From Candidatus Binatia bacterium (GTDB lineage: Bacteria > Eisenbacteria > RBG-16-71-46 > SZUA-252), in contig DASQJL010000114.1 in the NCBI GenBank assembly GCA_035631035.1, positions 1-57,239 on the forward strand: a stretch of 57,239 nt of DNA, in the 5' to 3' direction. The position numbers were made by a program, and so were the translations under genes. Under the pieces are notes generated by a model that made no database searches, was not told the DNA's origin, and saw only the letters and a program-made list of their open reading frames with translations. Shown in pieces: positions 4,202-55,894 of this stretch; position 1 is the first letter of the stretch; every line of letters starts with the position of its first letter.

Positions 4202-4209
4202 GCCCGGGA

Positions 4210-6239: not shown

Positions 6240-6256
6240 GGGCCAGAATACAGGCC

Positions 6257-8079: not shown

Positions 8080-8092
8080 GCGCGGCCGGGAT

Positions 8093-9226: not shown

Positions 9227-9290
9227 GACGGCGCGATCGCGCCCATCGCGGCGGGTCCGGCCGCGCGCGCCCCGGCCCGGGGCGCCGCGG

Positions 9291-12022: not shown

Positions 12023-12342
12023 GGCCTCCCTCTCCTCCCCCCTGCCCTCAGGAACGCAAGTTCGCCGAGAATCTAACCGCGGGGCTCCCCGGGCGGCAAG
12101 GATTGAGCCGCAGGGGGTCCGACGGGGGAGGGTCGTGGGTTTAGATGCCGCGGGGCTCTCGCAGGACGAATCCCGGGAGTAACCGCAGCCGATACAGGTA
12201 CTTTGGGCGGTTCCACCGCCGCAAAGCCGCCCCCCCGCCGCCTTCCGCGCGCGCCGAGGGCGCGCGCGGCATGTGGATTGCCCTTCCCACCTCCGATCGG
12301 TATCCCGAACGTCGTCCTCGACCGAAAGCGAGGTATCCCCCC
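12023..12342. other. Divergent intergenic region between top6B and the pilus-type ATPase gene
   Basis: This stretch of 320 bases separates two genes transcribed away from each other, so it should hold both promoters. I could not find convincing -35/-10 pairs for either gene. An open frame runs through it in phase with the plus-strand gene (possible ATGs at 12145 and 12271), but the encoded Arg/Pro-rich sequence does not look like conserved protein. Confidence 0.4.
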
Positions 12343-13776: not shown

Positions 13777-14888
13777 TGCCGCTCGACGTGAAGACCCTGC
13801 TCCAGGCGACGGTCGAATCCGGCGCTTCGGATCTCCACATCTCCTCCGGCATGCCCCCGATGATCCGCCTGCGCGGCGAGATGGTGCGCTCGCAGTCGCC
13901 CTCGCTCTCCGACGCCGACGCGCGCGCGCTCCTCTCCCCCCTGATGAACGACGGCCAGCGGAAGCTGTTCGAGGAACGGCGCGAGATCGACTTCGCGTTC
14001 GAGATCCCGGGACTCTCGCGGTTTCGCGCCAACATCTTCGAGCAGCGGCGCGGGATCGGGGGCGTGTTCCGGGTGATCGCGACCAAGATCCGCACGCTGG
14101 ACGAGCTCGGCGCGCCCAAGATCCTCCGCGACCTGGCGCTCAAGGAGCGCGGGCTGGTGCTGGTGACCGGTCCCACGGGCAGCGGCAAGTCGACGACGCT
14201 CGCCGCCATGATCGATTTCGTGAACTCGAGCCGCGCCGGGCACATCATCACGATCGAGGACCCGATCGAGTTCGTGCACGAGTCCAAGAGCTGTCTCATC
14301 AACCAGCGGGAAATCGGCGCCCATACCGATTCCTTCGCGGCCGCGCTCCGGAGCGCCCTGCGCGAGGATCCGGACATCCTCCTCGTGGGCGAGCTCCGCG
14401 ACCTCGAGACGACGGCGCTCGCGATCACGGCCGCCGAGACGGGACACCTCGTCTTTGGCACGCTTCATACGAACTCCGCCGCGAAGACGATCGACCGGCT
14501 CATCGACATCTTCCCCGCGGATCGCCAGTCGCAGGTGCGGACGATGGTGAGCGAGTCGCTGGAAGGGGTGATCGCCCAGAGCCTGATCCCCACCGCCGAC
14601 GGCAAAAGCCGCGTCGCCGCCCTCGAGATCCTGGTCGGGGTCCCCGCGCTCCGGAACCTGGTGCGGGAGGACAAGACGACGCAGATCCAGAGCGTCATGC
14701 AGGTCGGGGCGCAGCACGGGATGCAGACCCTGGACCAGGCGCTCAAGGATCTCGTGATCGCAGGGAAGATCACGCGCGAGGCGGCGGCCGAGCGCTCGAC
14801 CAATCCGAAGCTCTTCGAGGGGCCGCACGGGGGCACGCCGGGAGCGCCCGCGGGAGCCGGAGCGGCCGCGGCGGCGTCGCGGGCCTAG
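13776..14888 (+). CDS. pilT: Type IV pilus retraction-type ATPase PilT
   Basis: 370 residues. Intact motifs include Walker A GPTGSGKST (132-140), the Asp box IITIEDPIEF, Walker B DILLVGELRDLET, and the His box GHLVFGTLHTNSAAKTIDR. The N-terminal PAS-like region begins with SGASDLHISSG, as in PilT. It powers pilus retraction as a cytoplasmic hexamer at the pilus base. The Ala/Gly-rich C-terminal tail is low complexity. It is coupled to the upstream pseudo-ATPase; other pilus genes are not in the window. Confidence 0.92.
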   Translation: MPLDVKTLLQATVESGASDLHISSGMPPMIRLRGEMVRSQSPSLSDADARALLSPLMNDGQRKLFEERREIDFAFEIPGLSRFRANIFEQRRGIGGVFRVIATKIRTLDELGAPKILRDLALKERGLVLVTGPTGSGKSTTLAAMIDFVNSSRAGHIITIEDPIEFVHESKSCLINQREIGAHTDSFAAALRSALREDPDILLVGELRDLETTALAITAAETGHLVFGTLHTNSAAKTIDRLIDIFPADRQSQVRTMVSESLEGVIAQSLIPTADGKSRVAALEILVGVPALRNLVREDKTTQIQSVMQVGAQHGMQTLDQALKDLVIAGKITREAAAERSTNPKLFEGPHGGTPGAPAGAGAAAAASRA

Positions 14889-15010
14889 GGCAGAGCCCGC
14901 GGTCGAGAGGCTGTGGTACACTCGATGGAAGAAGCTCATCCGCCACTCCAACGAACGTGTCCGCCATCGAAACCGACAAACGCACCCGCCTCGAGCGCCG
15001 GTCCCGGTCC

Positions 15011-15697
15011 ATGCGCCTCGTCTTGTTCGACATCGACGGCACCCTGCTCCGCGAGGGGCTCGCGCCCAAGATCGCCTTCGCGCGCGCGCTCCGCGAGACC
15101 TACGCCACCACCGGACCAATCAACGATTTCAAGTTCGCGGGCATGACCGATCCGCAGTGCGTCACCGAGATCATGCGGCTCGCCGGGATCGACGACGACG
15201 TGATCCACTCCCGGCGCAAGGAATGCCTCCGCCGCTACGTCGAGCACCTCCACGTGGAGATGCCGAACCACGACGGCGCCCGGCTCTTCCCCGGCGTGCG
15301 CGAGCTGCTCGAGCGGCTGAACAAGCTGGACGACGTGATGGTGGGGCTTCTGACCGGGAACATCCTGCGCGGCGCCGAGCTCAAGCTGCGCCGCTGGAAC
15401 CTGGAGCCCTATTTCCGCTTCGGCGCCTACGGCGACGACCACGAGGACCGCTCCGTGCTGGCCCAGATCGCTCTGGAGAAGGCGCGCGCGCTGACCGGGC
15501 GGGTCTTCAGCGGCGCGGACACGACGGTGGTGGGCGACACGCCGCGCGACGTCTCCTGCGCGCGCGCGATCGGAGCCCGCGCGGTCGTGGTGGCCACCGG
15601 CCAGGTCTCGCGGTCCGAGCTGGCCGAGTCGGCGCCGGACGCCATCCTCGATTCCTTCGAGAATCACGAAGCCGCGCTTCGCGCGATCTTTCCGTAG
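15011..15697 (+). CDS. HAD-superfamily phosphatase (phosphoglycolate-phosphatase-like)
   Basis: 228 residues from the ATG at 15011; an in-frame GTG at 14957 would add 18 residues, and neither has a clear ribosome-binding site. HAD motif I is LFDIDGT (Asp nucleophile and Asp+2), motif II is the Thr in LLTGN, and motif IV is VVGDTPRDVSCA. A helical cap between motifs I and II places it in the Gph-like subfamily. It probably dephosphorylates a small phosphorylated metabolite in the cytoplasm; the substrate cannot be read from sequence. It starts 122 bases after pilT, and the possible -10 TACACT at about 14914 may give it its own promoter. Confidence 0.82.
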   Translation: MRLVLFDIDGTLLREGLAPKIAFARALRETYATTGPINDFKFAGMTDPQCVTEIMRLAGIDDDVIHSRRKECLRRYVEHLHVEMPNHDGARLFPGVRELLERLNKLDDVMVGLLTGNILRGAELKLRRWNLEPYFRFGAYGDDHEDRSVLAQIALEKARALTGRVFSGADTTVVGDTPRDVSCARAIGARAVVVATGQVSRSELAESAPDAILDSFENHEAALRAIFP

Positions 15698-15804
15698 CCG
15701 CCCGTAGCCGCTCCCGGCAACTTTTCCTGGCCGACGCGCTGTCGCTCCTTCATTCTGCAGCCCAGCCTCCTTTCCGCCGATAACGCGCGCAAGGAGGAAC
15801 ACCG

Positions 15805-42176: not shown

Positions 42177-44101
42177 GCGCGACGCGCGCGGCCTCCGCTC
42201 CTCCGGCGTTCGAGGAGGCCCTCCGGACCTTCGGGTTCCCTTCGTTCCGCCCGGGCCAGCTCGAAGCCCTCGAGACGCTCCACCGCCGGCGCCGGCTGCT
42301 CCTCGTCGCCCCCACCGGAGGTGGAAAGAGCCTCATCTACCAGCTGCCGGCGACGATGCTTCCCGGCACATCGCTCGTGATCTCGCCGTTGATCTCGCTC
42401 ATGCACGATCAGGTCGACGCGCTCGAGGCGAAGGGAATCCGCGCGACCTATCTCGCCTCGACGCTGGATGACGGCGAGGCGATGGAGCGGCTCTGGCAGA
42501 TCCGCGGCGGCGAGTACCGGATCGTCTACGTCGCGCCGGAACGGCTTCGCTTCCCCGGCTTTCGCGATCTCGTGCGCGCCATGGGCTGCCCCCTGATCGC
42601 GATCGACGAGGCGCACTGCATCAGCCAGTGGGGGCACGATTTTCGCCCCGACTACCTCCAGATCCGCGGCTTCCTGGAGCTCCATCCCGAAGCGCTCGTG
42701 CTCGCCTGCACCGCCACGGCCACGCCGGTCGTGCGCGATGACATCCTCCGCCAGCTCGGGTTTCCGGCGGACACGCCGCAGATCGTGCGCGGGTTCGCGC
42801 GTCCCAACCTGGCCCTTCGGGCGCGGAGCGTCGCCAGCGCGGCCGAGGCGGCGCGGGCGGTGGACGACACGCTCCGCGAGGCTCTGGGGGGTGCGGCGGC
42901 GCCGCGCGGCGGGGCGATCGTCTACTGCCTCTCGCGCAAGGACGCCGAAGAGGAGGCAAAGCGGCTCCGCGAGGAGGGGTGGAGGGCGGGCTGGTACCAC
43001 GCGGGCCTCTCGGGCGACCACCGCAGCCAGGTGCAGCGCCGCTTCATGCGCGGCGAGCTCGCGGTCGTCGCGGCCACGAACGCCTTCGGCATGGGAATCG
43101 ACCGGGCGGACGTGCGCGCCGTGATCCATCGCTCGCCGCCCGATTCGATCGAGTCCTACTACCAGGAGGTCGGCCGCGCCGGCCGCGACGGCGAGGACGC
43201 CTCGGGGCTCCTCCTGCTCCGCGCGCAGGATATCCCGCGGCGCCGCCATCTCCTCGAGCGGAGCGCGTCGGAGTCGGCGGCGGGGGAGGCGATGTTCGAG
43301 CACAAGTGGTCGATGTTCCTGGACCTGATCCGCTGGGCCGAGGGGGGCTCCTGCCGCCACGACGCCATCCTCCGCTACTTCGGCGACGAGGCGGAGACGC
43401 TGCACGGCTGCGGCCGCTGCGACGTCTGCGCCGAGATCGCCCAGGGCGGCGCGGTCGGGGGAAGCGCCGAGGAGAGCGGGAGGATCGTGATGGCGGTGCT
43501 TGGGGCGGTGGCGCTGGTGCACGAGCGGCTGGGCCCCAAGGCGACGGCCAAGTTCCTGCGCGGCGAGGACGACGAGCGGCTGATCCGCGCCGGCCTCGTG
43601 GGCCGGCCGGGCTGGGGCGCGCTCGCCGGCGAGACCGAGGCCTGGCTGGGACAGGTGATCCAGCGCTGCGTCGCCGCCGGATGGGTGGACTTCACGCCGG
43701 GCGAGTACTCGCTTCTGGTGCTCACGCCGTCGGGGCGCGCGGTGCTCGACGGAAGACGGCCCGGGTCGCTGATCCTGCCGCCCCGGGGGACCGGGGCCGC
43801 AAAGCCCCGTTCGCGCTCCCGCCGACGGGATGCGGCGCCGCCAGCGGGCGGCGAGACCGACTTCGACGAATCGCTTTTCGAATCGCTGCGCGAGTGGCGG
43901 CGCGCCGAGTCGCTCGCGGGCGGGGTGCCCGCGTTCGTCGTCGCCACCGACCGCGCCCTGCGCGACATCGCCGCGGCGCGCCCCCGGACGGCCGAGGAGC
44001 TCCTCGCCTGCCACGGGATCGGCCCGCAGAAGGCCGTGAAGTACGGAGACTCGATTCTGGAGGTGGTGGCGCGGTCGGGTCAGCCCCGGCGCCGCGTGTA
44101 G
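42173..44101 (+). CDS. recQ: ATP-dependent DNA helicase RecQ
   Basis: 642 residues from a TTG at 42173 that overlaps the lipoprotein stop (TTGA). The SF2 helicase has Walker A APTGGGKS (Lys52), DEAH in AIDEAHCISQWGHDF, and motif VI QEVGRAGRDG. The RecQ zinc domain has Cys residues in GSCRHD and HGCGRCDVC. A winged-helix RQC region follows, and a C-terminal HRDC domain ends the protein (about 555-630). It unwinds DNA 3' to 5' in repair and fork processing. The 3' end overlaps the convergent small gene by 22 bases. Confidence 0.93.
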   Translation: MSATRAASAPPAFEEALRTFGFPSFRPGQLEALETLHRRRRLLLVAPTGGGKSLIYQLPATMLPGTSLVISPLISLMHDQVDALEAKGIRATYLASTLDDGEAMERLWQIRGGEYRIVYVAPERLRFPGFRDLVRAMGCPLIAIDEAHCISQWGHDFRPDYLQIRGFLELHPEALVLACTATATPVVRDDILRQLGFPADTPQIVRGFARPNLALRARSVASAAEAARAVDDTLREALGGAAAPRGGAIVYCLSRKDAEEEAKRLREEGWRAGWYHAGLSGDHRSQVQRRFMRGELAVVAATNAFGMGIDRADVRAVIHRSPPDSIESYYQEVGRAGRDGEDASGLLLLRAQDIPRRRHLLERSASESAAGEAMFEHKWSMFLDLIRWAEGGSCRHDAILRYFGDEAETLHGCGRCDVCAEIAQGGAVGGSAEESGRIVMAVLGAVALVHERLGPKATAKFLRGEDDERLIRAGLVGRPGWGALAGETEAWLGQVIQRCVAAGWVDFTPGEYSLLVLTPSGRAVLDGRRPGSLILPPRGTGAAKPRSRSRRRDAAPPAGGETDFDESLFESLREWRRAESLAGGVPAFVVATDRALRDIAAARPRTAEELLACHGIGPQKAVKYGDSILEVVARSGQPRRRV

Positions 44102-44355
44102 ATCGCGCGGAACCCGAGCGCGACCGCCGCGCGGCAGTCGTGGCACCCTTCCGGCAACAGCTCGGGCCGGAGCGGATCGGCGCAGGCCTCGTAGCCGAGC
44201 GTTTCGTAGAGCCGCACGAACGATTCCGCGCGAAGCCCCTCGACGACGAAGCGCAGGGCCCACCCCTGCGCGATCCGCTCGGGGTCGGGCTCGGCGGAGA
44301 CCTTCGAGAGCGGACCGACCCGCTCGCCGCGCCCGAATCCGGTATCGGCGATCAT
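44080..44355 (-). CDS. Small conserved CxxC protein coupled to the benzoyl-CoA reductase genes
   Basis: 91 residues, start overlapping the stop of the upstream reductase activase gene (ATGA at 44352-44355). The central block GWALRFVVEGLRAESFVRLYETLGYE and the C-terminal IYTRR resemble small uncharacterised proteins in other bacteria. Cys71 and Cys74 form a CxxC; Cys58 is a third. There is no signal peptide. Two or three Cys are too few for a normal ferredoxin, but binding of a metal or a redox role is possible. The overlap suggests production together with the reductase. Function unknown. Confidence 0.7.
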   Translation of the reverse strand: MIADTGFGRGERVGPLSKVSAEPDPERIAQGWALRFVVEGLRAESFVRLYETLGYEACADPLRPELLPEGCHDCRAAVALGFRAIYTRRRG

Positions 44356-45206
44356 GTCCGGGGCGCCGTGGAGGCGAGCGCCGCGCCCGCCGCTCCGCCC
44401 GCGATCTTCGAAAGTCGCTGCTGCCCCAGCCACGCCGCGCCGAGCGCGGGGACGAACTGGGGGAGGTCCCCCTCGGGCACGTGCACCACGCCCGCGAGCG
44501 ACTCGCGCGCCACGCGCGCCATCGTCTCGTAGCGGAGGATCCCCCCGATCAGCGTGAAGGGCCCCTCCATCCGCGCGCGCTTCATCAGCTGGACGGAGCG
44601 TCCCACCAGCGACACGATCGCGCCGTGCATGATGTCCGCGGGCGCCACCCCCTGCGAGAGGTGGTTGATCACCTCCGATTCCGCGAACACGGCGCACACG
44701 CCGGAGATCGGCGGGAACTCCTTCGAGGTCGCCACCAGCGGCCCGATCTCCTCGGTGGCGTAGCCCAGGTAGCGGGCCGTCTTCTCGAGGAAGGCGCCCG
44801 TCCCCGCGGCGCACTTGTCGTTCAGGCGGAAGGTCTTCACCTTGCCGCGCTCGTCGATGCGGGTCGCCTTCATCGTCTGCCCGCCGACGTCCAGGACCGT
44901 CTGGGTATCGGGGAAGAGCAAGCGGGCGCCGCGCGCCGAGGCGGTCAGGTCGGTGACGTGGATGTCGGCGAAGGGAGCCTGATGGCGCCCGTAGCCGGTC
45001 GCCACGACGTACCCCACCTGCTCGCGGTCGAGGCCGGCGTTCGCGATGAGCCGCGCGAGCGAGCCCTCGGCCACCTCGGTCAGGCGGAATCCGGTCGGCT
45101 CGAGGGCGCGGCCCAGGACCGCGCGGTCCTCGCGCAGGAGCAGGACCTTCGTGTAGGTGGAGCCGACGTCGATGCCGGCGGTGATCCGCAGGGCCCGCGC
45201 GCTCAT
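44352..45206 (-). CDS. bcrD: Class I benzoyl-CoA reductase, activase-type subunit D-like
   Basis: 284 residues of the BadF/BadG/BcrA/D ASKHA ATPase family. The phosphate-1 loop is [10 protein letters not shown] and the phosphate-2 region LDVGGQTMK. The iron-sulfur ligands are Cys132 in NDKCAAGTG and Cys171 in [12 protein letters not shown], which bridge a [4Fe-4S] cluster between two such subunits. It couples ATP hydrolysis to electron transfer to the B/C catalytic pair. [10 protein letters not shown] is closer to BcrD than BcrA. It is fourth in the C-B-A-D order and overlaps the third gene. At this length it lacks the extension of Thauera BcrA. Confidence 0.85.
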
Positions 45207-46021
45207 GGGCGGCCCTTCCCCGCGCGCGCCGGTTCCCGGCTCGCGAGGATCTGATCGCGCGCGAAGAGCGCGGCCCCGAGCGCGCCCATGTAGTGCGACT
45301 CCTCGCTCACGTTGACCTTGAGCCCGAGCTGCCGGTTCAACGCCTCGACCATCGCCACGTTTCGCGCCACGCCGCCGGTGAAGGTGACCTCCTCCTCGAT
45401 CCCGACGCGCCAGAGCAGGCTCACCGCCCTCGAGGCGATCGACTCGTGCACGCCCAGGAGGACGTCGCCGATCTTCTTCCCCTTGCCCAGCCACGAGAGG
45501 ACCTCCGACTCGGCGAACACCGTGCAGGTGGTGCTGATCTTGACCGGCCGCTCGCCCGTGAGCGCGGTGGGCCCGAGCTCCTCGAGCGGGATGTCGAGCG
45601 CGGAGGACGCCGCGCCCAGGAAGCGCCCCGTTCCCGCGGCGCACTTGTCGTTCATGCAGAAATCCGCGATCTCGCCGCGGCCCGAGACCTTGATCGCCTT
45701 GGTGTCCTGGCCTCCCATGTCGACCACCGTGCGCGTGGCCGGGAACATGTGCACGGCGCCGCGACCGTGGCAGCTGATCTCCGTCACCTGCGTGTTGCCG
45801 AACGTCACCTTGTAGCGCCCGTAGCCGGTGCCGACGACGAACTCGACCTCCTCCTCGCGCAGCTTGCCGTCGGCGAGCGCGCCGCGAAAGGCGTTCTCCG
45901 CCGCGCGCATCACGTTCGCTCCCGTTCCGATCAGGGCGCGCCCCGCGATGACGCCCGACTCGTCCACCACGACCGCTTTCGTCTGCGTCGAGCCGACGTC
46001 CACCCCTGCCGCGTAGGCCAT
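45203..46021 (-). CDS. bcrA: Class I benzoyl-CoA reductase, activase-type subunit A-like
   Basis: 272 residues of the same ASKHA family. Motifs are [22 protein letters not shown], Cys127 in NDKCAAGTG and Cys166 in [11 protein letters not shown], and [13 protein letters not shown] near the C-terminus. It should pair with the next subunit around one [4Fe-4S] cluster and two ATP sites. Both activases are short, as in the Azoarcus (Bzd) and 3-methylbenzoyl-CoA reductase subtypes. A lone member would suggest 2-hydroxyacyl-CoA dehydratase, but two different activases next to two HgdB-like subunits favour an aromatic-ring reductase. Confidence 0.85.
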
Positions 46022-46025
46022 GTCG

Positions 46026-47333
46026 CTACCTCCCCGCTCCGGCGCCGCCGGCCGGGGCCAGGCGGCGCGACACCAGTCCCTCGAAGAACGCGTCGATCCG
46101 GTTCTTGAGCTGCGCCTCGGAGACGACGCGCTGATCCATCATGTCCGACTCCACGAACAGGGTCGCCACGTCCCGCCGCTCCATGAGGGCGCGGCGGTTG
46201 TCGGCCAGCCCCGTCGAGACGGTGCGGCAGCTCTTGATCGGGTGGAACACGACGCCGTCGACCGCGTAGGTGTCGACCATCTCGGCCAGCGCGGTCGTCG
46301 GGTAGAACATGCTGTCCATCGCGTCCCGCACGCTCACGAGGAGCCCCTCGGCCAGGCTCTCGACCGGATCCCTCGGATCGTACTCGAACGCGCGATTGGC
46401 GCCCCCGGAGGCGAACCAGAGGTAGGTGGAGTTGACGAACGTGCCGCCGTGCTCGGTGAAGAGCTCGGTGAACCGCCGGAAGATCGGATAGCAGGGCACG
46501 CCCACGAACACGAGGCGGAAGCGCTCGTCGACCAGGGTCCCGATCCCCTCCCGCTGCTTCAGCTCCATCTCCTCCACCAGCTGCTCGAAATAGGTGGCGC
46601 CCTCGGGCGCGCCGCGGAATCCGTTGCACACGCCGAGGTAGATGGTGCCGTCCGAGAGTGCGTTGAAGAGCGAGGGGCGGCTTCGGTTCAGCTCCAGCAC
46701 CCGCTTCCAGCCCCGTCCCAGGCGGTTTGCGTTCTGGAGCGACTCCCGGAGGCGGTCGATGTCGAACTTCTTCCCGGTCACCTGCTCCAGCAGGGCGATC
46801 AGCTCGCGGATCTGCGCCGCGACGTAGCGGCGGTCGTTCTCGAAATCGCGGTCTCCGCGCCAGGTCTGGGCGCCGTCGGCGCGCGTCCCCGGCACGTCGA
46901 GCACGTAGCAGGGCATCCCGTACATCCGCTCCCAGATCTCGGCCCACTTCACGTAGGTGTTGCAGGCGTTCGTGAGCACCGCGATCTTGGGCGGCGGGAT
47001 CCGGCCCATCGGCAGCTCGCCGCCGCGGCGCTGCGTCGCCACGTCGGCCTTCACGTAGCCGCACAGGTCCGAGGAGTAGCCCAGGTCCTCGGCCTCGTTC
47101 AGGTACTCCTGCGCCACGTGGCGCACGGCGGTCTGGAGCGAGTTGATCTCGGGGAACACGAGCGGCAGGTCGAAGACCCGAAGCAGCTCGCCCAGGCTCC
47201 CCATGACGAACACGTACGCGCCGCCCCGTCCGTCGACCGCGGCGCGGCCCAGGTCCTCGAACCACTCGCGGAAGAGGCGCGCCCCGTCGCGATTCCCCCG
47301 TCCCACGATTTCGGCCAGCGCGGCAGGCACCAT
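46026..47333 (-). CDS. bcrB: Class I benzoyl-CoA reductase subunit B-like
   Basis: 435 residues, HgdB/BcrB family (2-hydroxyacyl-CoA dehydratase D-component fold). Cys residues that could ligate a [4Fe-4S] cluster occur in [19 protein letters not shown] and PIKSCRTVS. The N-terminal [16 protein letters not shown] and the [14 protein letters not shown] block resemble BcrB/BzdO. Length equals that of known B subunits (about 435-450). It forms the substrate-binding heterodimer with subunit C. The gene begins 9 bases after the C-subunit gene ends. Confidence 0.87.
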
Positions 47334-47342
47334 GTTCGGCTC

Positions 47343-48554
47343 CTAGTCGAAGAGGAGGTTCTCGACGAAGGTCTCCAGCTGGATCTCGATCTGCTCGAAG
47401 GAGGTCATGTTCTCCTCGAACTCCGTGACGAAGTAGGGGAGGCGGGCGGCGTCCAGCGCCTGCACGTACGCGACCTGCTCCTCCAGCCCCGGCTCGCACA
47501 TCTTGGCCGCGGCGATGATGACCGCGCGGGCGCCCGAGCGCTCCACGCGCTCGAGGAGCATCCGCTCCTTGGGCTTTCGAGGGTCGTGCTGCACCGGGCT
47601 GTAGCTGGACCGGTCGAGGTAGGCCGCGGCCAGGTCGGCCAAAGGGTCCTCGCCGGCCCGCACGTCCTCCAGGATCCAGCGGAGGCCGATCAGCAGATCG
47701 TCGTCCACGACGTAGCAGGAGCGGCCGACGGCGCGGATCAGGTCGAGCGGCGGCTGCTCGCAGAACCCTCCCTCGAAGACGACCCGGATCCGGTCCTGCG
47801 CGCGCGCCGGACGCGACTCCAATCGTGGCAGCACGGCGCGGAGCACCTCGTTGTGCTCCTCGCGCGGGACCAGCCCGCCCACCGCCGTGAGCGCGTACGC
47901 TTCGTGCGCGGCCACCAGCCAGGGACGCTCGCGGCGGATCGCATAGAGGCCGCGCAGGAGCCTCCGGTTCTCGTTGAAGACGCCGATGGAGCGGCGGAGA
48001 TCCTCGTCGCGAACCTTGCGCTCGGCGACCGCCTCGATCGCGCGGCGCAGGCGGTCGTACTCGCCGCGCAGGTAGGGCGCGGCGCTCGGCGAAGCCGCGT
48101 TCTGGGGCAGGTAGAGGATCTGGCAGGGGTAGGCGAAATTGCGCCCCCAGACCGCCGCCAGGTTTCGCGCGGCGTCGCAGATCGGATGGGTCACGAACAG
48201 CTCCAGCGTCACGACCTGGGTGAGCGCCAGCTCGAGCGAGGTCTTGATGATGGAGCAGAGATAGGAGCCGAACCGCGACTCGGCGTGCCCCGCCTCGATC
48301 GGCGCGCCGCGCACCTTGAACGGGAGGAGTCCCGCGGCGTTCGCGATCTCCTCCGGGAAGTAGACCTGGAAGTGACCGACCACGCGGCCGCCCCCCTCGC
48401 GCCAGCGGCGCACCGTCGGGAAGGAGACGTCCTCGACCAGGTCCTGACAGGCCGAGAGCATCCCTTCGAGGTCGTGCCCCTTCCACTCGGGGAAGACCGG
48501 GGTCGCGGCCGCGCGCGCTCCGCTCGATGCCGCGCGGGCGGGACCGGCGCTCAT
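47343..48554 (-). CDS. bcrC: Class I benzoyl-CoA reductase subunit C-like
   Basis: 403 residues, HgdB/BcrC family; start overlaps the dch stop (ATGA). Typical elements are [21 protein letters not shown], the Cys in [13 protein letters not shown], and [12 protein letters not shown] close to the C-terminus, followed by [19 protein letters not shown], which is very like BcrC/BadD/BzdN. The Cys set should bind a second [4Fe-4S] cluster at the active site. With B it holds benzoyl-CoA, which is reduced by two electrons to a cyclic dienoyl-CoA at the cost of ATP. The reductase is oxygen-sensitive, implying anaerobic growth. Confidence 0.88.
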
Positions 48555-49315
48555 CGGTGCTCCCACGCGGGCGTCCGCTTCTCGGTGAAGGCGCGCAGCC
48601 CCTCCAGCGCGTCGCGCGTCTCCATGACCTCCTCGACGTAGATCGCAGCCGCGGCCTGGAGCGCATCGGGCCTCGTGCGGCCGACCGCCGCGCGGAGCGT
48701 GCGCTTGGTGAGCCGGAGTGCGGCGGCGCTGTGGCGGGCGCAGCGCTCCGCCAGCGAGCGCGCCTCGGCCTCGACGGCGTCGTCGGGGACGACGCGCTGG
48801 ACCAGCCCCGCCTCGGCGGCGCGCCGGGCGGCAATGGCGTCGCCGGTGAAGAGGATCTCGGCCGCGTGGCCGTAGGGGCCGCGTCGCGGGAGGAGGGCGC
48901 AGGCGATCGGCGCGGTGACGCCGAGCAGGATCTCCGGCTGGCCGAAGGAGGCGCCCTCGCCGGCCACGACGATGTCCGCCGCCTGGACCAGCTCGAACCC
49001 GCCCCCGAGGCAGCGGCCGCGCACGGCCGCGATCACGGGGACCGGAAGCGAAGCGATCGCTTCGACCGTGCCCACCATCTCGGGAATCAGGTCGCGGAAG
49101 GACGGCGGCAGGTGCTCTCCGACGTCCGCGCCCGCCGAGAAGTGCCTGCCGGTCGCAGCGAGGACCACGGCCCGTACGCCCGGCTCGTCGCGGAGCCGGA
49201 GCGAGGCCTCGCGCAGCTCGCGAAGGACCGCGCGCGTCAGCACGTTGAGCGGCGGGTGATCGAGCGTGAGGGTCGCGATGCCCGCGTCCACTTCCATCCG
49301 AACGTTCATGCCCAC
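48551..49315 (-). CDS. dch: Cyclohexa-1,5-dienecarbonyl-CoA hydratase (Dch-like enoyl-CoA hydratase)
   Basis: 254 residues of the crotonase fold. The oxyanion-hole segments are [14 protein letters not shown] and [13 protein letters not shown]. The EH after GADVG and the LGQPEI-like [23 protein letters not shown] stretch match known dienoyl-CoA hydratases (Dch, BzdW), not general fatty-acid hydratases. It adds water to the dienoyl-CoA made by the reductase, giving 6-hydroxycyclohex-1-ene-carbonyl-CoA. Neighbours supply the steps before and after. A general enoyl-CoA hydratase is the fallback reading. Confidence 0.82.
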
Positions 49316-49324
49316 GGCCTCCTT

Positions 49325-50074
49325 CTAGACGTACTGCCCGCCGTCCACCTTGAGGACCTGTCCCGTCACGTGCCGCGCGCCCGCCGAGCAGAGCCACGCC
49401 ACGGCCGACGCGCAGTCCTCGGGCTCGGCGATCCTCCCCACCGCGCTCTCTTCGATCGCAGCCTCGACGAAGCGGTCGGGCAGCGGCGCGGTCATCGGGG
49501 TCTTCACCATTCCCGGCGCGACGACGTTCACCGTCACGCCCGACCGACCGAGCTCCTTCGCCAGCGACTTCGAGAGCGCGACCATGCCCCCCTTGGAGGC
49601 GGCGTAGTTGGCCTGCCCCGCCTTCCCCCGAAGGCCGTTGATCGAGGCGATGTTCACGATGCGCCCCCATCCGCGGTCCCGGAGCACCGCGCCGGCCGCG
49701 CGGCTCCAGAGGAAACAGCCGGTGAGGTTCACGCCGATGACGTCGTCCCACTGGGCGGGCGTCATCTTCCAGCTCACCGCGTCGGCGGTGATCCCGGCCG
49801 CGCAGACGAGGATGTCCAGGCGGCCGAACGCGGCCACGACGTCCTGGATCGCCCGCTCGGCGAACGCCGCGTCACGGACGTCCCCCTGCAGGCGCAGCCC
49901 GCGCCGCCCGGCGGCTTCGATCCCCTGGAGCACTCGCGACCCGGCGGCCTCGAAGCGCGCGTCCATCACGGCGACGTCGCACCCCTCGCGCGCCAGCGCG
50001 AGCGCGATCGCCGCTCCGATTCCCGAGGCGCCCCCGGTCACGACCGCGGCGCGCCCTTGGAGGCCCAGGTCCAC
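49325..50074 (-). CDS. Short-chain dehydrogenase/reductase (FabG-like) in the benzoyl-CoA operon
   Basis: 249 residues from a GTG with complement at 50072-50074, just after the oah stop. The Rossmann motif is TGGASGIG, followed by CAAGI, catalytic Ser in NIASINGL, and YAASK with Tyr and Lys. It ends with the SDR tail LKVDGGQYV. Likely NAD(P)-dependent oxidation of a hydroxyacyl-CoA, such as 3-hydroxypimeloyl-CoA after ring opening, in the manner of the SDR found in Azoarcus bzd clusters. The exact substrate is inferred from context. Confidence 0.8.
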
Positions 50075-50079
50075 GGCCC

Positions 50080-51204
50080 TCAGCTCCCCGCCGGCTCCGG
50101 AATGGCCGGCGCCGCCGGCGGCTGGCACTGCGGCGAGATCGCGCGGTAGAGCTCGTCGTCCCAGGGATGCCCCTCCGCCAGCATCTGGCGGAGCTTGATG
50201 AAGTCCACCTCGCGCTTCCCCTTGGGCCCTTCGTGGAAGGCGCGGAACCCGGCGCGCGCCTCGGTCATCATGTTGAGCGCGAGCCAGTCGCGATTGGTCC
50301 CGCTGTTCGCCTGCCAGTGGTGGAGCTTGTGCTTGCGGAGGCTCGCGATCGTCTTCGCGGTACAGTCGGGCATGAGCATCAGGAGCTTGGCGCAGAGCGA
50401 CTCGACGGCCTTATCGAGGAGCGAGAGATCGGTCTTCGCGCGCGCGAAGGTCTCCTTGGCGAGGATCAGGTCGGGCCCGGTGCGGAAGTCGCCGTAGACG
50501 ATCCGTCCCATCTCGTCCAGGAAGCGGTCGGTGACCACGAGCGGATTCGGGATCCACCGCCCGTCCAGGCGCAGGACCGGCACCACTTCGTTCACGAGGC
50601 CCAGGAACATCGCGCGGTGCGCGCTCCAGGTCTCGCAGAGCACCGCGCTCTCGATGGCGCGGCCGAAGCCGACGTAGACGGGGAGGAAATCGGTCGACCC
50701 GCCGTCGGGCGCCGAGCCGTGCTTCGGGCCCGCCTGTCCGAAGCGAGCGGTGTCCACGGCGACGCTGAAGTCGCAGGCCATCCCGATCTCCTGGCCGCCG
50801 CCGATCCGCATCCCGTTCACGCGGTTCACCACCGGCTTGTCGCACGCGAGGATCGCGTCGATCATGTCGTTGAAGACCCGCATGTACTGCTTGTACTCCT
50901 GCGGATTCCCCGCGTAGTAGGTCGCGTACTCCTCGGTGTTGCCGCCCGTGCAGAACGACTTGTCCCCCGTCGCCGTGAAGACGACCGAGACCACGCGCCG
51001 GTCCAGGCTGGCCTGCCGGAACGCGATCCCCACCTCGCGCGCCATGTCCGTGGTGTAGCTGTTCAGCTGCTTCGGGTTGTCCAGGACGATCCACGCGTGG
51101 AACAGGCCGTCGGCGGCGCGCCCGCACGGATCGAGGGCGGGGCGCATCTCGTAGCCGATGTGCTGGAAGCGGTACTCCGGAAACAGCGTGTGGTCCTTCA
51201 GCAT
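50080..51204 (-). CDS. oah: 6-oxocyclohex-1-ene-1-carbonyl-CoA hydrolase (Oah/BamA-like)
   Basis: 374 residues, the usual length for Oah (about 375), much longer than a plain crotonase. The oxyanion-hole segments are KSFCTGGNTEEYATYYAGNP and GMRIGGGQEIGMACDF. The pattern GNTEEYATYYAGNPQEYKQYMRVFNDM is the standard diagnostic for BamA/BzdY/Oah. It adds water and hydrolytically opens the ring to 3-hydroxypimelyl-CoA. This is a widely used marker gene for anaerobic aromatic degradation, and its presence strongly supports the operon call. Confidence 0.93.
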   Translation of the reverse strand: MLKDHTLFPEYRFQHIGYEMRPALDPCGRAADGLFHAWIVLDNPKQLNSYTTDMAREVGIAFRQASLDRRVVSVVFTATGDKSFCTGGNTEEYATYYAGNPQEYKQYMRVFNDMIDAILACDKPVVNRVNGMRIGGGQEIGMACDFSVAVDTARFGQAGPKHGSAPDGGSTDFLPVYVGFGRAIESAVLCETWSAHRAMFLGLVNEVVPVLRLDGRWIPNPLVVTDRFLDEMGRIVYGDFRTGPDLILAKETFARAKTDLSLLDKAVESLCAKLLMLMPDCTAKTIASLRKHKLHHWQANSGTNRDWLALNMMTEARAGFRAFHEGPKGKREVDFIKLRQMLAEGHPWDDELYRAISPQCQPPAAPAIPEPAGS

Positions 51205-51259
51205 CGTTCTCTCCCGCGCGCCGCGCGCGCTCGTGCGGGGCGGCTTCCGCCCCGCGACC

Positions 51260-52303
51260 CTAGGGCTCGAGGATGGCCCGCTTCTGGATCTCGTGATCGG
51301 CCACGCGGCGCACGACCTCGGGGCCGTCGCGCAGCGGATGCCGCTCGATGAACGGATGGAGCGTGACGCGCCCCGACGTGACCATGCGAAGCGCCTCGGG
51401 GTAGAGCTCGGGGCGGCAGCCCCAGGTGCCCTGCGCCGTCGCGTCGAAGGCCATGAGGTTGCTCAGCCGGAGCTGGACCTTGTCGAGGGTGAACCCCACG
51501 ACCATCAGGATTCCCGCCGTTCCGAGGAGGCCGAACGCCGTCTCCTGCCCCGCCGCCGTCCCGGAGCATTCGAAGATCTTCCAGCCGTGCGGGGCCACGC
51601 CCCACGCCTTGGCGCGCGCCGCGATCTCCTTCTTCAGCGCCTTGAAGTCCGTCGCCGAGGGATCGAGCGCCAGGCTCGCGCCATGCGCCGCGATCCCCGC
51701 AAGCTTCGCCGCGTCCACGTCCAGCACCACCACGCGCGCGCCGAAGGCGGCCGCGATCTGCACCGCGTAGCCGCCCACGCCGCCCGCGCCCACGACGATC
51801 GCGAGATCGCCGGGACGGAGACCGCTGCGGACGATCGCCTGGTAGGGCGTCGTCACGGCGTCGGCCACGACCGAGAGGTCGGCCAGCGAATAGCCGTTCC
51901 GCTCCGTGACGGGGCAAAGCCCGCGCGCGGGGACGGCGACCCGCTCCGCGAACCCCCCATCGAGATCGTTCCCCGGCATGATCTGGCTCCGGCACGCGTT
52001 CCCCCGCCCCGAGCGGCAGAGGTCGCATTCGCCGCACGGGATGACGGAGGGAACGATCACCTCGCGTCCGATCCACTCGCGGCACTCCGGCGCCGCCTCG
52101 TCCACGACGCCGCTTACCTCGTGGCCGAGCGTGATCGGGAGCGGATGGCGGGTCGGAACGCCGTCCCGCCAGAAACCGATGTCGGTGTGGCAGACGCCGC
52201 ACCCGGCGACGCGCACGACGACTTCCCCCGCGCGCGGCTCGGGTTCGGGAACGTCGACGACGGCAAGTGGCGCGCCGGAGGCGTTGAGACGGATCGCTTT
52301 CAT
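51260..52303 (-). CDS. had: 6-hydroxycyclohex-1-ene-1-carbonyl-CoA dehydrogenase (Had-like zinc alcohol dehydrogenase)
   Basis: 347 residues, start overlapping the TetR-gene stop (ATGA). Catalytic zinc ligands are Cys in GCGVCHTD and His/Glu in LGHEVSG. Structural zinc Cys are in PCGECDLCRSGRGNACR. The NAD-binding motif is VGAGGVGGYAVQ. VCHTDIGFWRDGVPTRHPLPITLGHE and MPGNDLDGGFAE resemble Had/BamQ/BzdX. It oxidises the Dch product to the 6-oxo compound that Oah opens. The 55-base gap to oah is the only sizeable one in the operon. Confidence 0.88.
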   Translation of the reverse strand: MKAIRLNASGAPLAVVDVPEPEPRAGEVVVRVAGCGVCHTDIGFWRDGVPTRHPLPITLGHEVSGVVDEAAPECREWIGREVIVPSVIPCGECDLCRSGRGNACRSQIMPGNDLDGGFAERVAVPARGLCPVTERNGYSLADLSVVADAVTTPYQAIVRSGLRPGDLAIVVGAGGVGGYAVQIAAAFGARVVVLDVDAAKLAGIAAHGASLALDPSATDFKALKKEIAARAKAWGVAPHGWKIFECSGTAAGQETAFGLLGTAGILMVVGFTLDKVQLRLSNLMAFDATAQGTWGCRPELYPEALRMVTSGRVTLHPFIERHPLRDGPEVVRRVADHEIQKRAILEP

Positions 52304-53004
52304 GGCTTTCTCCGGGAACGGTTCGGCGCGGCGGGGCTCTTGGAGTTCTTGGGGTTCTTGCGGTTGTCGAGGCCCGCCAGGAACAGGTCCGTGAAGCGGT
52401 CGCCCAGCTCCGCGGCCTGCAGCGATCCCTCGGGCCGGTACCAGCGCGCGATCCAGTTGATCGCGCCGAGCATGGCGAACGCGGCGACCTTGGGGTCGGT
52501 CTTCCGGAACGCTCCGGCGCGGATGCCGGACGCCAGGATCCGGCGGAGCTCGCGCTCGTAGCGGTCGCGGGCCGCGATGATCTCCGCCCGCGGCCCTTTC
52601 GAGAACGCGGTGACCTCGAAGGCGAGCGGCGACCCCTCGAGCGTGTCGGTCATGACGCGCACGTGCTCGCGGATCACGTGCCCCAGCCGCTCGCGCGCGG
52701 TCGGTAGCCGCCGGGTCTCGGCGAGGATCCGGTCCAGCTCGGCGAGCGAGTCCTTGTGGCACTCGTACAGGATCGCTTCCTTGTCGGGGAAATAGTGGTA
52801 GAGCGCCGTCTTGCGCACGCCCAGGCGGCGCGCGATGTCGTCGAGGGTGGTTCGGTGGTAGCCGCGATGGCGAAAGGCCCGGAGCGCGGCGTGGAGGATC
52901 TCCTCCCGGCGGCGCTCGCGCTTGGCGCGAATGCGCGGGGAGCGCGTTTTCGCGGCGGGGGTGCGCATGGTGCGCACGGAACGTACGGCGGCGGCTTCGG
53001 CCAT
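52300..53004 (-). CDS. TetR-family transcriptional regulator of the benzoyl-CoA operon
   Basis: 234 residues; ATG after GGGAGG. The N-terminal helix-turn-helix is clear (REEILHAALRAFRHRGYHRTTLDDIARRLGVRKTALYHYFPDKEAIL region, about 33-78). The C-terminal ligand domain is of the TetR_C_17/KstR2-like kind, frequently responsive to CoA thioesters. It is the first gene of the operon and overlaps had, so it likely represses its own operon until an aromatic acyl-CoA binds. This differs from BzdR of Azoarcus, an XRE-type regulator. The C-terminal tail is basic (NRSRRKP). Confidence 0.88.
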   Translation of the reverse strand: MAEAAAVRSVRTMRTPAAKTRSPRIRAKRERRREEILHAALRAFRHRGYHRTTLDDIARRLGVRKTALYHYFPDKEAILYECHKDSLAELDRILAETRRLPTARERLGHVIREHVRVMTDTLEGSPLAFEVTAFSKGPRAEIIAARDRYERELRRILASGIRAGAFRKTDPKVAAFAMLGAINWIARWYRPEGSLQAAELGDRFTDLFLAGLDNRKNPKNSKSPAAPNRSRRKP

Positions 53005-53045
53005 CGGTCACCCTCCCGAAGAAATTTGAACCGATGGTCGAAGAT

Positions 53046-53086
53046 TGAATCCGGGTTCAGGGCCTGTCACCTGACAAGGTGTCAGG
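53046..53086. promoter_or_regulatory. Two inverted repeats upstream of the TetR gene, candidate operators
   Basis: A near-palindrome TGAATCCGGGTTCA (53046-53059, six of seven pairs) and a perfect CCTGACA-3 bases-TGTCAGG (53070-53086) lie 42-82 bases upstream of the regulator start in the otherwise empty 142-base gap. Reading the minus strand, TTGTCA within the second repeat could be a -35 box. Spacing and position fit TetR binding, which normally covers a short palindrome over its own promoter. Confidence 0.45.
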
Positions 53087-53146: not shown

Positions 53147-55810
53147 CTACAGCCCCAGCCAGTACGTCGCCTTGATGGCGACGATGTTCTCCGGGGACTG
53201 GTCGAAGACGGCCCGCACGTCGCGCGAGAAATCGAAGTCGCCGAAGGGCTGCGCGCCGTTTCGGTTCTGCTGCCACACGAGGAAGAGGACCGATCCGGGG
53301 CGGTACTCCCAGCGGAGCACCGCGTTGCCCAGCAGCGAGCGGAAATTGAAGTTGGGATCGCCGAGGGCGAAGGAGGACGAGGGCCCCGGGCCGTCGGGAT
53401 CGATCGTATAGGTGCCGGCCGGGTCCCGCGTGATCGTGCCGCGGCTTCCTCCGTAGACGTCGAAGTCGTACGTGCTCGGCGCCCGCAATTCCTTGAGCTC
53501 CCGGAAGAGGGCGGAGACCACGTAGGGCTGCAGGTAGAGCTGGAACGAGAGCCGGGGCGAGAAGGTCCAGTCCAGCCGCGTGTCCAGGCTGACCACGTGC
53601 TCGTCGAGCGTCGCGAAGACGTAGCGGCTCCCGTAGGTGGCGGTCGCGTTCGGGTCGGGCACGGTCGTCACGTACTGAGCCATGTCGCGGATCTTCTGGA
53701 TGCTGGGCTCGACGCGGACGAGCATCGACGGCGCCGGGTGCAGCGTCAACGACGGCGAGTACCGCTGCGCGTTGGCGCCGGCGTCGTTCCACGAGAAATC
53801 GGAGTGCAGGCTGAAGAAGTAGCTCTGGCGCGAGTCGGTGTTCACCGTGGCCGCGACCCGTCCTCCGGAGGGAATTCGGGTGAGCGGTCCCCCGCGGGTC
53901 AGCCGGTCGTCGTACGCCTTCGGATACCACGACCCCCGCAGATCGCCGTACCAGTAGTTGGCGAACGTGCCCGACCCCTGCGCCTCGTAGCCCTGGTACT
54001 GGAGATTCCCCCCGTGATTCCAGGCGTTGTTGCTGAACGCCATCACGTACCAGTTCCGGAACAGCCGGCTCGGCTTGTCCTCTTTGTACATGCCCAGCGT
54101 CGAAACGCCCCAGGTATCCACGTTGCTGATGTAGCCCATGTCGTTGCTCTCGAACCCGGGCGACAGGTCCTGGTACGTGATGTTGCCCTTCCAGTGCTTC
54201 CCGCCCAGCTTGTTCAGGGAGATCAGGTCGGAGATTCCGGTGAGATGGGTCCGGGTGGGATCGAACTCGACGTGATCGGCGTCGGGGCGCTGGAAGTAGT
54301 GCGCGCTGGAACGCTGGGTGGCCGCGATCGCTTCCGCGCTCCCCTCGATGCGGCTCCCCTGCACGTAGCCGTCCAGCGACCAGCGCCGTCCCGCCCAGTA
54401 GTGCATGAAGTCGATCCCCGCCACCGTGGCGCGCGAACGGAGCATCGATTCCAGCCCCGGGTCGGACAGGTCGCGCGAGACGTTGGTGACGATCGCTCCG
54501 ATCCGCGTGTTCCCGCCCCCCAGCTCGCGGCGGACGCGCGCGACGGCGTAGTTCGTGAGCGGCTCCACGGGCAGCCGGCGCTCGACCCCCAGCGTATCGA
54601 GATAGCGCGCCCGCTCTTCGGTGGTCACCGCGTCCAGGGCGCCGACCGACCACCCGCTTCGGGTCTTTCCGGTCAGCTTGGCGGCGGCCGCGATCGTCGA
54701 GAGCGACGGCGTGTCCAGGAAGGGATAGTCGAACGGGGAGAGGGATCGCTGCGGCGCGCGCCCGATGCGCCGCGCGTGGAACGTCGTCGGCACGCTGAAG
54801 TAGTTGGAGCTCTGCGTCTGGCCGAAGTTGAACAGCTCCGAGCGTTCGACGAAGAAGGGCCGCTTCTCCGGGAAGAAGGTCTCCGTGGCCGTGAGGTTTA
54901 CGACCGCCGGGTCCACTTCGACCTGGCCGAAGTCGGGATGGACCGTCGCGTTCAGCGTCAGGTCGTCCTTGATCCCCCACTTGAGGTCGGCCCCGACCGA
55001 GCCGCTCTGCTCCGAACCGTCGTGGAAGGGATCGCCCGGAGGCGCGAAGGTGTTCTGCGCCTTGGCCAGCCCATAGGGCATCAGCTCGATCTGGCGCCGC
55101 GCGTGCAGCGCGCCCAGGCCGGCCAGATGGCCGTAGCGGCTCACGTCGGCCTGCTCGTTTTTCGGAGTGAAGGAGAATTCGGCAAGCTCCTGCTTGCGAT
55201 CGATCCAGCGCCGGAACTGGATGCCCCAGATCCCGTCGGCGGAGGGGTTGAAGCGGAGCTGGGAGAGGGGGATCTCCATCTCGGCCGTCCATCCGGTCGA
55301 ATCGATCGTGGCGTGCACGTGCCAGACCGGGTCCCAGGAGAAGTCGTGGTTGCCGCGCGCGTCGATCGTGGCGTCGTCGAACGAGCCCGCGGGGTTGACC
55401 CGGAACCGGAACGCGGTCAGATGGTCGTGGTAGGAGTCGATCAGCACGGCGAAGTAGTCGGAGGCGAGATCCTCGTCGCGGCGCACGAGGCGGCGGCGGA
55501 TTTTCGAGGGCTCGCGGTCGTAGAGGCGCGCGCCGACGTAGAGCGCGTCGTCCCCGATCAGGACCCGCACCTCGGTGCGCTCGGAGACGGGCCTCCCCTC
55601 GTCGGGGTCGCGCTGGGTGAACCGGTCCACCGGGGTGGCGTCCGCCCAGGCCGGGTCGTCCAGCTTGCCGTCGATGCGGACGTCGCCGCGGAGCGGCGCC
55701 GCCTGGACCACGGGGGCGTCCGCGTGGCGATAGGCGTGGGTGGTGTCGGCGGACTGGGCGAGCGCCGAGGGCGCCAGAACCATCAACGCGAGCGCGACCA
55801 GGACGATCAT
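53147..55810 (-). CDS. DUF5916-type outer-membrane protein with N-terminal CBM9-like domain
   Basis: 887 residues from the ATG at 55810, after GGAGAG, with a signal peptide (MIVLVALALMVLAPSALA). Residues about 40-210 form a CBM9/DOMON-like domain (VRIDGKLDDPAWADATPVDRF, then DALYVGARLYD). The rest (VDPAVVNLTATETFFPEKRPFFVE onward) is the DUF5916 beta-barrel-like region, ending in an aromatic and Leu tail YWLGL as outer-membrane barrels often do. Substrate and role are unknown; members occur widely in FCB-group and Gemmatimonadota genomes. It lies upstream of the benzoyl-CoA operon on the same strand but 142 bases away, so it is probably a separate unit. Confidence 0.85.
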   Translation of the reverse strand: MIVLVALALMVLAPSALAQSADTTHAYRHADAPVVQAAPLRGDVRIDGKLDDPAWADATPVDRFTQRDPDEGRPVSERTEVRVLIGDDALYVGARLYDREPSKIRRRLVRRDEDLASDYFAVLIDSYHDHLTAFRFRVNPAGSFDDATIDARGNHDFSWDPVWHVHATIDSTGWTAEMEIPLSQLRFNPSADGIWGIQFRRWIDRKQELAEFSFTPKNEQADVSRYGHLAGLGALHARRQIELMPYGLAKAQNTFAPPGDPFHDGSEQSGSVGADLKWGIKDDLTLNATVHPDFGQVEVDPAVVNLTATETFFPEKRPFFVERSELFNFGQTQSSNYFSVPTTFHARRIGRAPQRSLSPFDYPFLDTPSLSTIAAAAKLTGKTRSGWSVGALDAVTTEERARYLDTLGVERRLPVEPLTNYAVARVRRELGGGNTRIGAIVTNVSRDLSDPGLESMLRSRATVAGIDFMHYWAGRRWSLDGYVQGSRIEGSAEAIAATQRSSAHYFQRPDADHVEFDPTRTHLTGISDLISLNKLGGKHWKGNITYQDLSPGFESNDMGYISNVDTWGVSTLGMYKEDKPSRLFRNWYVMAFSNNAWNHGGNLQYQGYEAQGSGTFANYWYGDLRGSWYPKAYDDRLTRGGPLTRIPSGGRVAATVNTDSRQSYFFSLHSDFSWNDAGANAQRYSPSLTLHPAPSMLVRVEPSIQKIRDMAQYVTTVPDPNATATYGSRYVFATLDEHVVSLDTRLDWTFSPRLSFQLYLQPYVVSALFRELKELRAPSTYDFDVYGGSRGTITRDPAGTYTIDPDGPGPSSSFALGDPNFNFRSLLGNAVLRWEYRPGSVLFLVWQQNRNGAQPFGDFDFSRDVRAVFDQSPENIVAIKATYWLGL

Positions 55811-55846
55811 GACTCTCCGACCGGTGTCGAGAACGATGGCGCGAAC

Positions 55847-55894
55847 CAACGGTGCGCCGACTCCGTTGAGACAGGGGAATCGCTCTCAACGTTG
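55847..55894. promoter_or_regulatory. Cluster of CAACG palindromic half-sites in a divergent promoter region
   Basis: CAACGG (55847-55852) and CCGTTG (55863-55868) form an inverted repeat with a 10-base spacer. CAACGTTG (55887-55894) is a perfect 8-base palindrome with the same core. All fall in the 191-base gap between the divergent DUF5916 and hydrolase genes, where a shared regulator could bind. Confidence 0.35.

Follow-up and report, generated by a model that had tools for sequence, protein, structure and literature searches.

A predicted class I aryl-CoA reductase operon with ring-opening enzymes in an Eisenbacteria genome and its environmental relatives

The window analysed here is a stretch of 57,239 nucleotides (nt) that makes up an entire contig (G000:C114) of a 3.35-Mb assembly that is 97.4% complete. 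Positions 44080-53004 carry ten close-set genes on the minus strand, all with open reading frames, which very probably constitute an operon for a class I aryl-CoA reductase and ring-opening enzymes. The block begins with tetR (52300..53004), encoding a TetR-family regulator of 234 amino acids (aa) with PF00440 and PF17932, and continues with had (51260..52303), for a 6-hydroxycyclohex-1-ene-1-carbonyl-CoA dehydrogenase of 347 aa, and oah (50080..51204), for a 6-oxocyclohex-1-ene-1-carbonyl-CoA hydratase/hydrolase of 374 aa. These are followed by a short-chain dehydrogenase/reductase gene (SDR; 49325..50128, start uncertain, GTG 50128 or GTG 50074), whose product is a probable 3-hydroxyacyl-CoA dehydrogenase, and by a crotonase gene for a Dch-like enoyl-CoA hydratase of 254 aa (48551..49315, with a possible alternative start at ATG 49309). 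The reductase genes then come in the order C-B-A-D, namely the gamma subunit C (47343..48554, 403 aa), the beta or active-site subunit B (46026..47333, 435 aa), the activase alpha subunit A (45203..46021, 272 aa) and the activase delta subunit D (44352..45206, 284 aa), and the block is closed by a small gene for a conserved CxxC protein of 91 aa (44080..44355). The intergenic gaps in transcription order are -4, 55, -49, 9, -4, 9, 4, -4 and -4 bp, and the oah-sdr gap becomes +5 bp if GTG 50074 is the sdr start. A preliminary description made from the sequence alone had reported ten minus-strand genes with overlaps or short gaps and the order C-B-A-D, as we found, and the motifs it quoted are all present: GNTEEYATYYAGNP at residue 88 of Oah, GADVGEH at residue 62 of the Dch-like protein, and NDKCAAGTG at residue 124 of A and residue 129 of D. 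A promoter and terminator scan of the locus gave no signal exceeding shuffles.

The two HgdB-like subunits and two activases seen earlier correspond to two HGD-D subunits and two BcrAD_BadFG activases in Pfam. Among solved structures, each of the four subunits best matched a different subunit of the 3-methylbenzoyl-CoA reductase (MBR) MbdNOQP, presumably from Aromatoleum sp. CIB: B matched MbdO (PDB 9g87_A, 499 bits, E 7.7e-149), C matched MbdN (9g87_B, 543 bits, E 4.7e-162), A matched MbdQ (9gai_D, 400 bits, E 4.1e-119) and D matched MbdP (9gai_C, 289 bits, E 3.4e-85). The earlier hint at the MBR subtype was therefore right, in that all four subunits are nearest Mbd among solved proteins. BzdO and BzdN matched B and C at E 3e-25 and 6e-21, respectively.

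A contig scan found 129 related places, the best 80 of which were used for locus counts. The C tree has 96 rows, of which 86, including the window and MbdN, form a clade with SH-aLRT support of 99; L030, L031, L033, L032, the divergent L029, BzdN and HadC lie outside it. In the B tree (78 rows; the B analyses leave out 14 of the 80 loci, which have no B of at least 380 aa), a 72-row clade contains Mbd with support of 96.6, and HadB, BzdO and the Thauera-type benzoyl-CoA reductase (BCR) are outside. Both are quick trees in which the BzdN/O and HadC/B branches are long and the dehydratases are represented by one HadBC pair. MbdN is nested within the clade in the quick C tree, but approximately unbiased (AU) tests do not uphold such nesting, as trees holding the environmental rows together gave p-AU of 0.89 (B) and 0.52 (C) with one Mbd pair as reference. 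As judged from sequence, C-B-A-D is a class I aryl-CoA reductase, kin of MBR, and not a 2-hydroxyacyl-CoA dehydratase. The BCR and BZD subtypes were ruled out by NCBIfam cut-offs and trees, and a 2-hydroxyacyl-CoA dehydratase by the strength of the PDB matches and the B and C trees; the grouping with dehydratases that had been named beforehand as a refuting outcome did not occur, since B and C fall on the MBR side with HadBC apart. The BCR type is also found in the same phylum, where L030, L031 and L033 score over the TIGR02263 cut-off and L032 and L029 under it; had adjoins the BCR-type set in L030, L031 and L033, and Oah is over its cut-off in L033. Additional matches of the HGD-D and activase-like kinds lie less than 20 kb from the Thauera-type set in L030 and L031. 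L029 (G043:C76), on a short contig, encodes a divergent C (41%), an SDR (54%) and an Oah-like protein, and is under every subtype cut-off. Plasmid records contained only B relatives, at 21-27% identity, in 15 records.

The active-site account of BzdO in Fuchs et al. 2025 (PMC11971306) gives Cys95, Cys128 and Cys380 as cluster ligands and the conserved Glu65 as the probable source of a proton; His131 contacts the iron-bound water in this account, and Tyr97, Tyr298 and Gln274 sit at the oxygen of the thioester. In B, Cys91, Cys124, Cys369, Glu62, Tyr93 and Tyr304 are invariant in 72 of 72 aligned rows, so that the counterparts of Cys95, Cys128, Cys380, Tyr97, Tyr298 and, by spacing, Glu65 are kept; the printed BzdO alignment starts at residue 75, so spacing is the basis of both the Glu65 equivalence and the setting assigned to Met44. 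Four positions that are active-site or nearby in the alignment, Met44, Thr121, Tyr127 and Val279, are fixed in 71 of 71 environmental B rows where MbdO has Ala, Asn, Phe and Thr, and the MbdO-like residues expected of the MBR subtype are thus lacking at all four. The position of BzdO His131 is taken by Tyr127 in all these rows and by Phe in MbdO and L030-L033, and that of Gln274 by Val279, with Thr in MbdO. Altogether, B has 23 positions whose residue is the same in 70 or more of the 71 environmental rows but different in MbdO. This signature suggests a subtype separate from the MbdO kind, whose substrate would probably be unsubstituted benzoyl-CoA. In C, Cys100, Cys126 and Cys353 (BzdN 73, 100 and 327) and Cys265 are present in 86 of 86 clade rows, as is Gln63. 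A BzdN-like double-cubane is not expected in C, which would more likely carry a single cluster than [8Fe-9S], because the BzdN distal ligands Cys36, Cys263 and Cys293 are unmatched. Activase A has Cys127 (in NDKCAAGTG) and Cys166, and activase D has Cys132 (in NDKCAAGTG) and Cys171.

Had and Oah pass the NCBIfam equivalog cut-offs, Had with 456.7 bits against 338.65 (TIGR03201) and Oah with 545.7 bits against 464.45 (TIGR03200), and homology of this strength (Had 457 vs 339 bits, Oah 546 vs 464) excludes chance as an account of the operon. The Oah of the window falls within the true-Oah clade, separate from the crotonases of the same tree, so the grouping with ordinary crotonases that would have spoken against the preliminary description was not seen. 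The best match of the SDR was TIGR01830 (254.9 bits, below the cut-off of 297.75); it passes the FabG-like subfamily model NF009466 (231.6 bits, cut-off 222) and is conserved as an operon member. Across the 80 related loci, a true Oah (at least 45% identity) is encoded in 17, an Oah-like protein of 32-39% identity in 31, and neither in 32, many of which are cut by contig ends; among the 32 loci with 6 kb on both sides, the numbers are 9, 14 and 9. The two types form clades apart in the Oah tree, one of 22 rows (support 97) and one of 32 rows (support 93), from which one Oah-like fragment of less than 300 aa (L084) is omitted. The 32-row sister family, of about 350 aa (e.g. L090:7479-8591), stands beside MBR-kin reductases, mostly from Gemmatimonadota, Chloroflexota and Actinomycetota, and none of the four Oah-like proteins checked reaches the oah, badI or menB cut-offs.

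At E 0.001, neither Pfam nor NCBIfam gave a match for the 91-aa protein. Homologues of its gene occur in 40 of the 80 related loci, and 36 of these loci have the homologue no more than 700 bp beyond D. The gene is common but not obligatory, as 15 of the 54 loci with at least 700 bp after D lack it. W32, R35, Y50, C71, C74, Y86, T87 and R88 are invariant in 35 sequences. The AlphaFold2 model (predicted local distance difference test score, pLDDT, 82.9; predicted template modelling score, pTM, 0.71) has no PDB fold match at E 0.001, and a PDB profile search gave four weak matches, the best to a dynein docking protein (E 0.003), which were taken as chance.

The nearest named relatives of the window are Candidatus Eisenbacteria, a phylum that NCBI lists as Candidatus Eiseniibacteriota among candidate phyla and not under FCB; the preliminary description had called the genome "FCB-like". 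In this phylum, C has a match at E 0.001 in 18 of 47 genomes, with 68-100% identity in nine (own genome included), and Oah is over its cut-off in eight of the nine genomes with C of at least 68% and in three of the 38 others. G009 and G013 have Oah over the cut-off without a class I C match, for which a class II system is one possible explanation. The gene order recurs, complete or partial, at eight other Eisenbacteria loci. The whole block tetR-had-oah-sdr-dch-C-B-A-D-last occurs in the window, L022, L023, L026 and L027, the last with 1587 extra bp between sdr and dch; L028 has no dch in place and a 44% similar gene upstream on the opposite strand, and the blocks of L024, L025 and L010 are truncated where their contigs end. 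The flanks have in common only a kinase-TPR (tetratricopeptide repeat) protein in three loci, a 29% similar pair in two, and sdr/dch paralogues; they share little, and therefore the ten-gene block looks like the unit. Directly upstream of the operon in the window, a DUF5916 protein with a CBM9-like domain is encoded at 53147-55849, and a comparison with other Eisenbacteria loci revealed no homologue of it at E 1e-20. The 80 loci come from Gemmatimonadota (20), Acidobacteriota (16), Chloroflexota (13), Actinomycetota (10), unclassified bacteria (9), Eisenbacteria (4), Planctomycetota (4), Zixiibacteriota (2), Myxococcota (1) and Calditrichota (1), and their record titles read metagenome-assembled genome (MAG) in 79 and bin in one (L060, HRbin33), with no named isolate. 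Each of the 51 loci that extend at least 4.2 kb beyond C encodes B, A and D together.

A 33-bp imperfect palindrome (53026..53058, minus strand), the top-scoring site of the window, lies 21 bp before tetR and is the probable binding site of the TetR regulator. It is found upstream of tetR in seven of seven Eisenbacteria operons, where it beats all 100 mononucleotide shuffles in leave-one-out tests; the seeds had been selected visually within this very set of sequences, and the shuffles preserve base composition only. In 14 other loci with a tetR more than 50% identical, the palindrome beats all 100 shuffles in seven and not in seven, the latter including L094, whose gene set equals that of the window. 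Orthology of the regulator with MbdR finds no support, as 4uds (E 3e-10) is only 25th of 38 listed PDB matches.

Several observations weigh against a benzoyl-CoA-degrading operon. All four subunits are far below the bcr (TIGR02259-02263) and bzd (TIGR03190-03192) cut-offs, no MBR model came up in the NCBIfam search of the subunits, and BzdO His131 and Gln274 are not kept in B. The Dch-like protein scores 182.5 bits in TIGR03189 against a cut-off of 292.5, for which reason Dch is a label by context only, and it is also below the EchA19 cut-off (193.5 vs 400 bits); of the earlier Dch claim, the motif and the fitting operon position stand, but not the family match. The one ligase in the genome over the benzoate-CoA ligase cut-off (TIGR02262) sits in a tryptophan/anthranilate-type aerobic cluster, next to a tryptophan dioxygenase, a kynureninase C-terminal-domain protein and a PRK08255 CoA-hydroxylase/oxidoreductase. 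A ligase passing this cut-off occurs in 14 of 47 phylum genomes and in five of the nine with the operon (Fisher p 0.10). No 4-hydroxybenzoyl-CoA reductase alpha was over the cut-off in the 47 genomes, the nearest being in G039 (964 vs 994.55 bits), and none was found in the own genome at E 1e-50. A candidate 2-oxoacid:acceptor oxidoreductase alpha on contig C7 scores 472 bits, below its cut-off of 482.75. For an enzyme taken to be oxygen-sensitive, the respiratory gene set of the host is odd: there are four COX1-family genes (three nearest CtaD, the fourth without NCBIfam match) and no Nar/Nap-type enzyme, the sole PF00384 match being NuoG; nitrite and NO reductases lay outside the search. The argument that a benzoate-CoA ligase is present and the host hence a benzoate degrader is weakened by the setting of this ligase, an aerobic anthranilate-type cluster, and by the lack of a clear link with the operon across the phylum. 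The cluster (L123, G000:C113:92000-111999, 578-10300) also encodes an acyl-CoA dehydrogenase, a crotonase and an SDR, in the manner of an aerobic anthraniloyl-CoA-type route. A ligase resembling the genome's own is encoded in three of the 80 related loci (L056, L084 and L109).

The genome has four POR gamma domains. On C7, the oxidoreductase alpha and a thiamine pyrophosphate (TPP)-binding protein adjoin Rnf-type genes and ApbE in a region (L126, G000:C7:32000-48615, 6198-15703) that is a candidate ferredoxin-reducing unit, and a second oxidoreductase alpha, on C76, passes the cut-off (569.5 bits). A two-cluster ferredoxin motif occurs in five of 85 loci, and within 2.5 kb of C only in L066 and L103. 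A NosZ (G000:C47:21656-23377) is over the cut-off of TIGR04246 (866 vs 625 bits), which we take to be the model of clade II NosZ. NosZ is present in five of the nine operon-bearing phylum genomes and in three of the 38 without the operon (Fisher p 0.0036), an association that is a lead only because kinship and completeness are uncontrolled.

In the favoured reading, the TetR regulator would control the operon by autoregulation, and reduced ferredoxin would be supplied from outside, possibly by Rnf and the adjoining 2-oxoacid:acceptor oxidoreductase. By analogy with BzdNO, the ferredoxin would reduce a [4Fe-4S] cluster bridging activases A and D, ATP hydrolysis would push the electron onto B-C, and the water-bearing cluster of B (Cys91, Cys124 and Cys369) would pass a hydrogen atom to the ring. 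A second proton would come from Glu62, and the product would be cyclohexa-1,5-diene-1-carbonyl-CoA. The Dch-like hydratase, Had and Oah would turn the dienoyl-CoA into 3-hydroxypimelyl-CoA, which would then be oxidised, probably by the SDR. We infer that the operon is used under anoxia, with nitrous oxide (N2O) as one possible acceptor.

Three other explanations were weighed. That B-C-A-D is a 2-hydroxyacyl-CoA dehydratase with its activases and has no link to aromatics is extremely improbable: the superfamily is shared (HGD-D, BcrAD_BadFG), but HadB and HadC match B and C at E 3e-31 and 3e-35 against 8e-149 and 5e-162 for MbdO and MbdN, the two activases are unlike and each nearest a different Mbd subunit, and the subunits are linked to a Had and an Oah over their cut-offs. 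As to the substrate, unsubstituted benzoyl-CoA appears the best choice and is somewhat favoured overall. A true reductase of 3-methylbenzoyl-CoA, or of another substituted benzoyl-CoA, with Had, Oah and SDR processing the substituted ring, would agree with 3-methylbenzoyl-CoA reductase being the best solved relative of all four subunits and with the position of MbdN inside the clade of the quick C tree. We consider it unlikely, as the nesting is not established, the four signature residues and the 23 differing positions set the environmental rows apart from MbdO, Met44 in place of Ala would leave less room for a ring substituent, and Had and Oah pass models for unsubstituted intermediates.

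The remaining alternative concerns physiology. The host might be mainly aerobic and, during brief anoxia, reduce aryl-CoA left from aerobic amino-acid breakdown through the anthraniloyl-CoA-type cluster, as an electron sink or for scavenging and not for growth on benzoate. The COX1-family genes (three CtaD-like), the ligase beside tryptophan dioxygenase and PRK08255 CoA-hydroxylase, and the lack of a Nar/Nap-type match all fit such a host; NosZ, on the other side, offers anaerobic respiration, and Had with Oah implies that carbon is carried to 3-hydroxypimelyl-CoA, beyond mere reduction, so this alternative seems rather improbable. The class I benzoyl-CoA degradation of the preliminary description is supported by the MBR-side subunits and by Had and Oah, with the substrate inferred. 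Its word "complete" says too much, as the block has no ligase, ferredoxin or transporter and its Dch is under the cut-off. More tentatively, and as a possibility that we would not yet call probable, the enzyme of the window may stand for a fourth subtype within class I, one that reduces benzoyl-CoA and is distributed over nine or more phyla represented by environmental assemblies (Eisenbacteria, Gemmatimonadota, Acidobacteriota, Chloroflexota, Actinomycetota, Planctomycetota and others). It would have Tyr at the place of the BzdO His131 that contacts the iron-bound water, often a small new partner protein, and two alternative ring-opening sets (true Oah and Had, or the Oah-like sister family, often with an SDR), and in Eisenbacteria it would serve aromatic breakdown with N2O as acceptor and without nitrate reduction.

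Most work on class I reductases, which attack the benzene ring in an ATP-driven reaction that needs no oxygen, has concerned proteobacterial denitrifiers. The finding here is that environmental genomes from at least nine phyla encode close kin of the MBR subtype, and that these share one signature next to the catalytic cluster, unlike that of the solved enzyme. The role of BzdO His131 becomes testable, since Tyr and Phe are natural variants, annotation with bcr and bzd models alone can, as these results suggest, miss dearomatisers, and the question arises whether N2O-reducing bacteria that do not reduce nitrate degrade aromatics. In the relevant portions of published work, Krumholzibacteriota have bcrABCD, with all four genes in 12 of 40, and 37 representative FCB genomes have no bcr or bam genes (PMC10936416); two Acidobacteriota MAGs have bcrABCD, dch, had and oah (PMC13170169), UBA5794 actinobacteria have bcrBC (PMC12008989), one Effluviviacota MAG has bcrC (PMC11323493), and the corresponding portions of PMC10803450 hold nothing on these phyla. 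For benzoyl-CoA reductase and Eisenbacteria, the open-licence literature yielded only PMC11323493, where Eisenbacteria figure, in the passages concerned, as a tree neighbour, and the phrase "3-methylbenzoyl-CoA reductase" was found nowhere in that literature. The range extension claimed in the preliminary description is thus partly anticipated, since bcr genes are already reported for Krumholzibacteriota and Acidobacteriota.

Among known systems, HadBC with its activator (PDB 3o3m, 4eht) shares the fold family and three cluster cysteines per subunit but is a far weaker match and lies outside the clade. The Thauera-type BCR has the same class I architecture, whereas the window subunits are far under the BCR cut-offs and in a separate clade of the C and B trees. 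The published Krumholzibacteriota and Acidobacteriota sets (PMC10936416, PMC13170169), in the parts describing them, likewise combine bcrABCD with pathway genes in uncultured phyla, and the subtype is given no name there. BzdNOPQ (PDB 8s02; active-site account in PMC11971306) is alike in the ligands of the active-site cluster, in Glu65 (placed by spacing) and in the tyrosines at the oxyanion, and differs in the distal double-cubane ligands Cys36, Cys263 and Cys293 of BzdN, absent here, and in His131 of BzdO, which is Tyr127 here. MbdNOQP (PDB 9g87, 9gai) is alike in its four orthologous subunits, short activases and cluster cysteines, but MbdO has Ala, Asn, Phe and Thr where B of the window has Met44, Thr121, Tyr127 and Val279.

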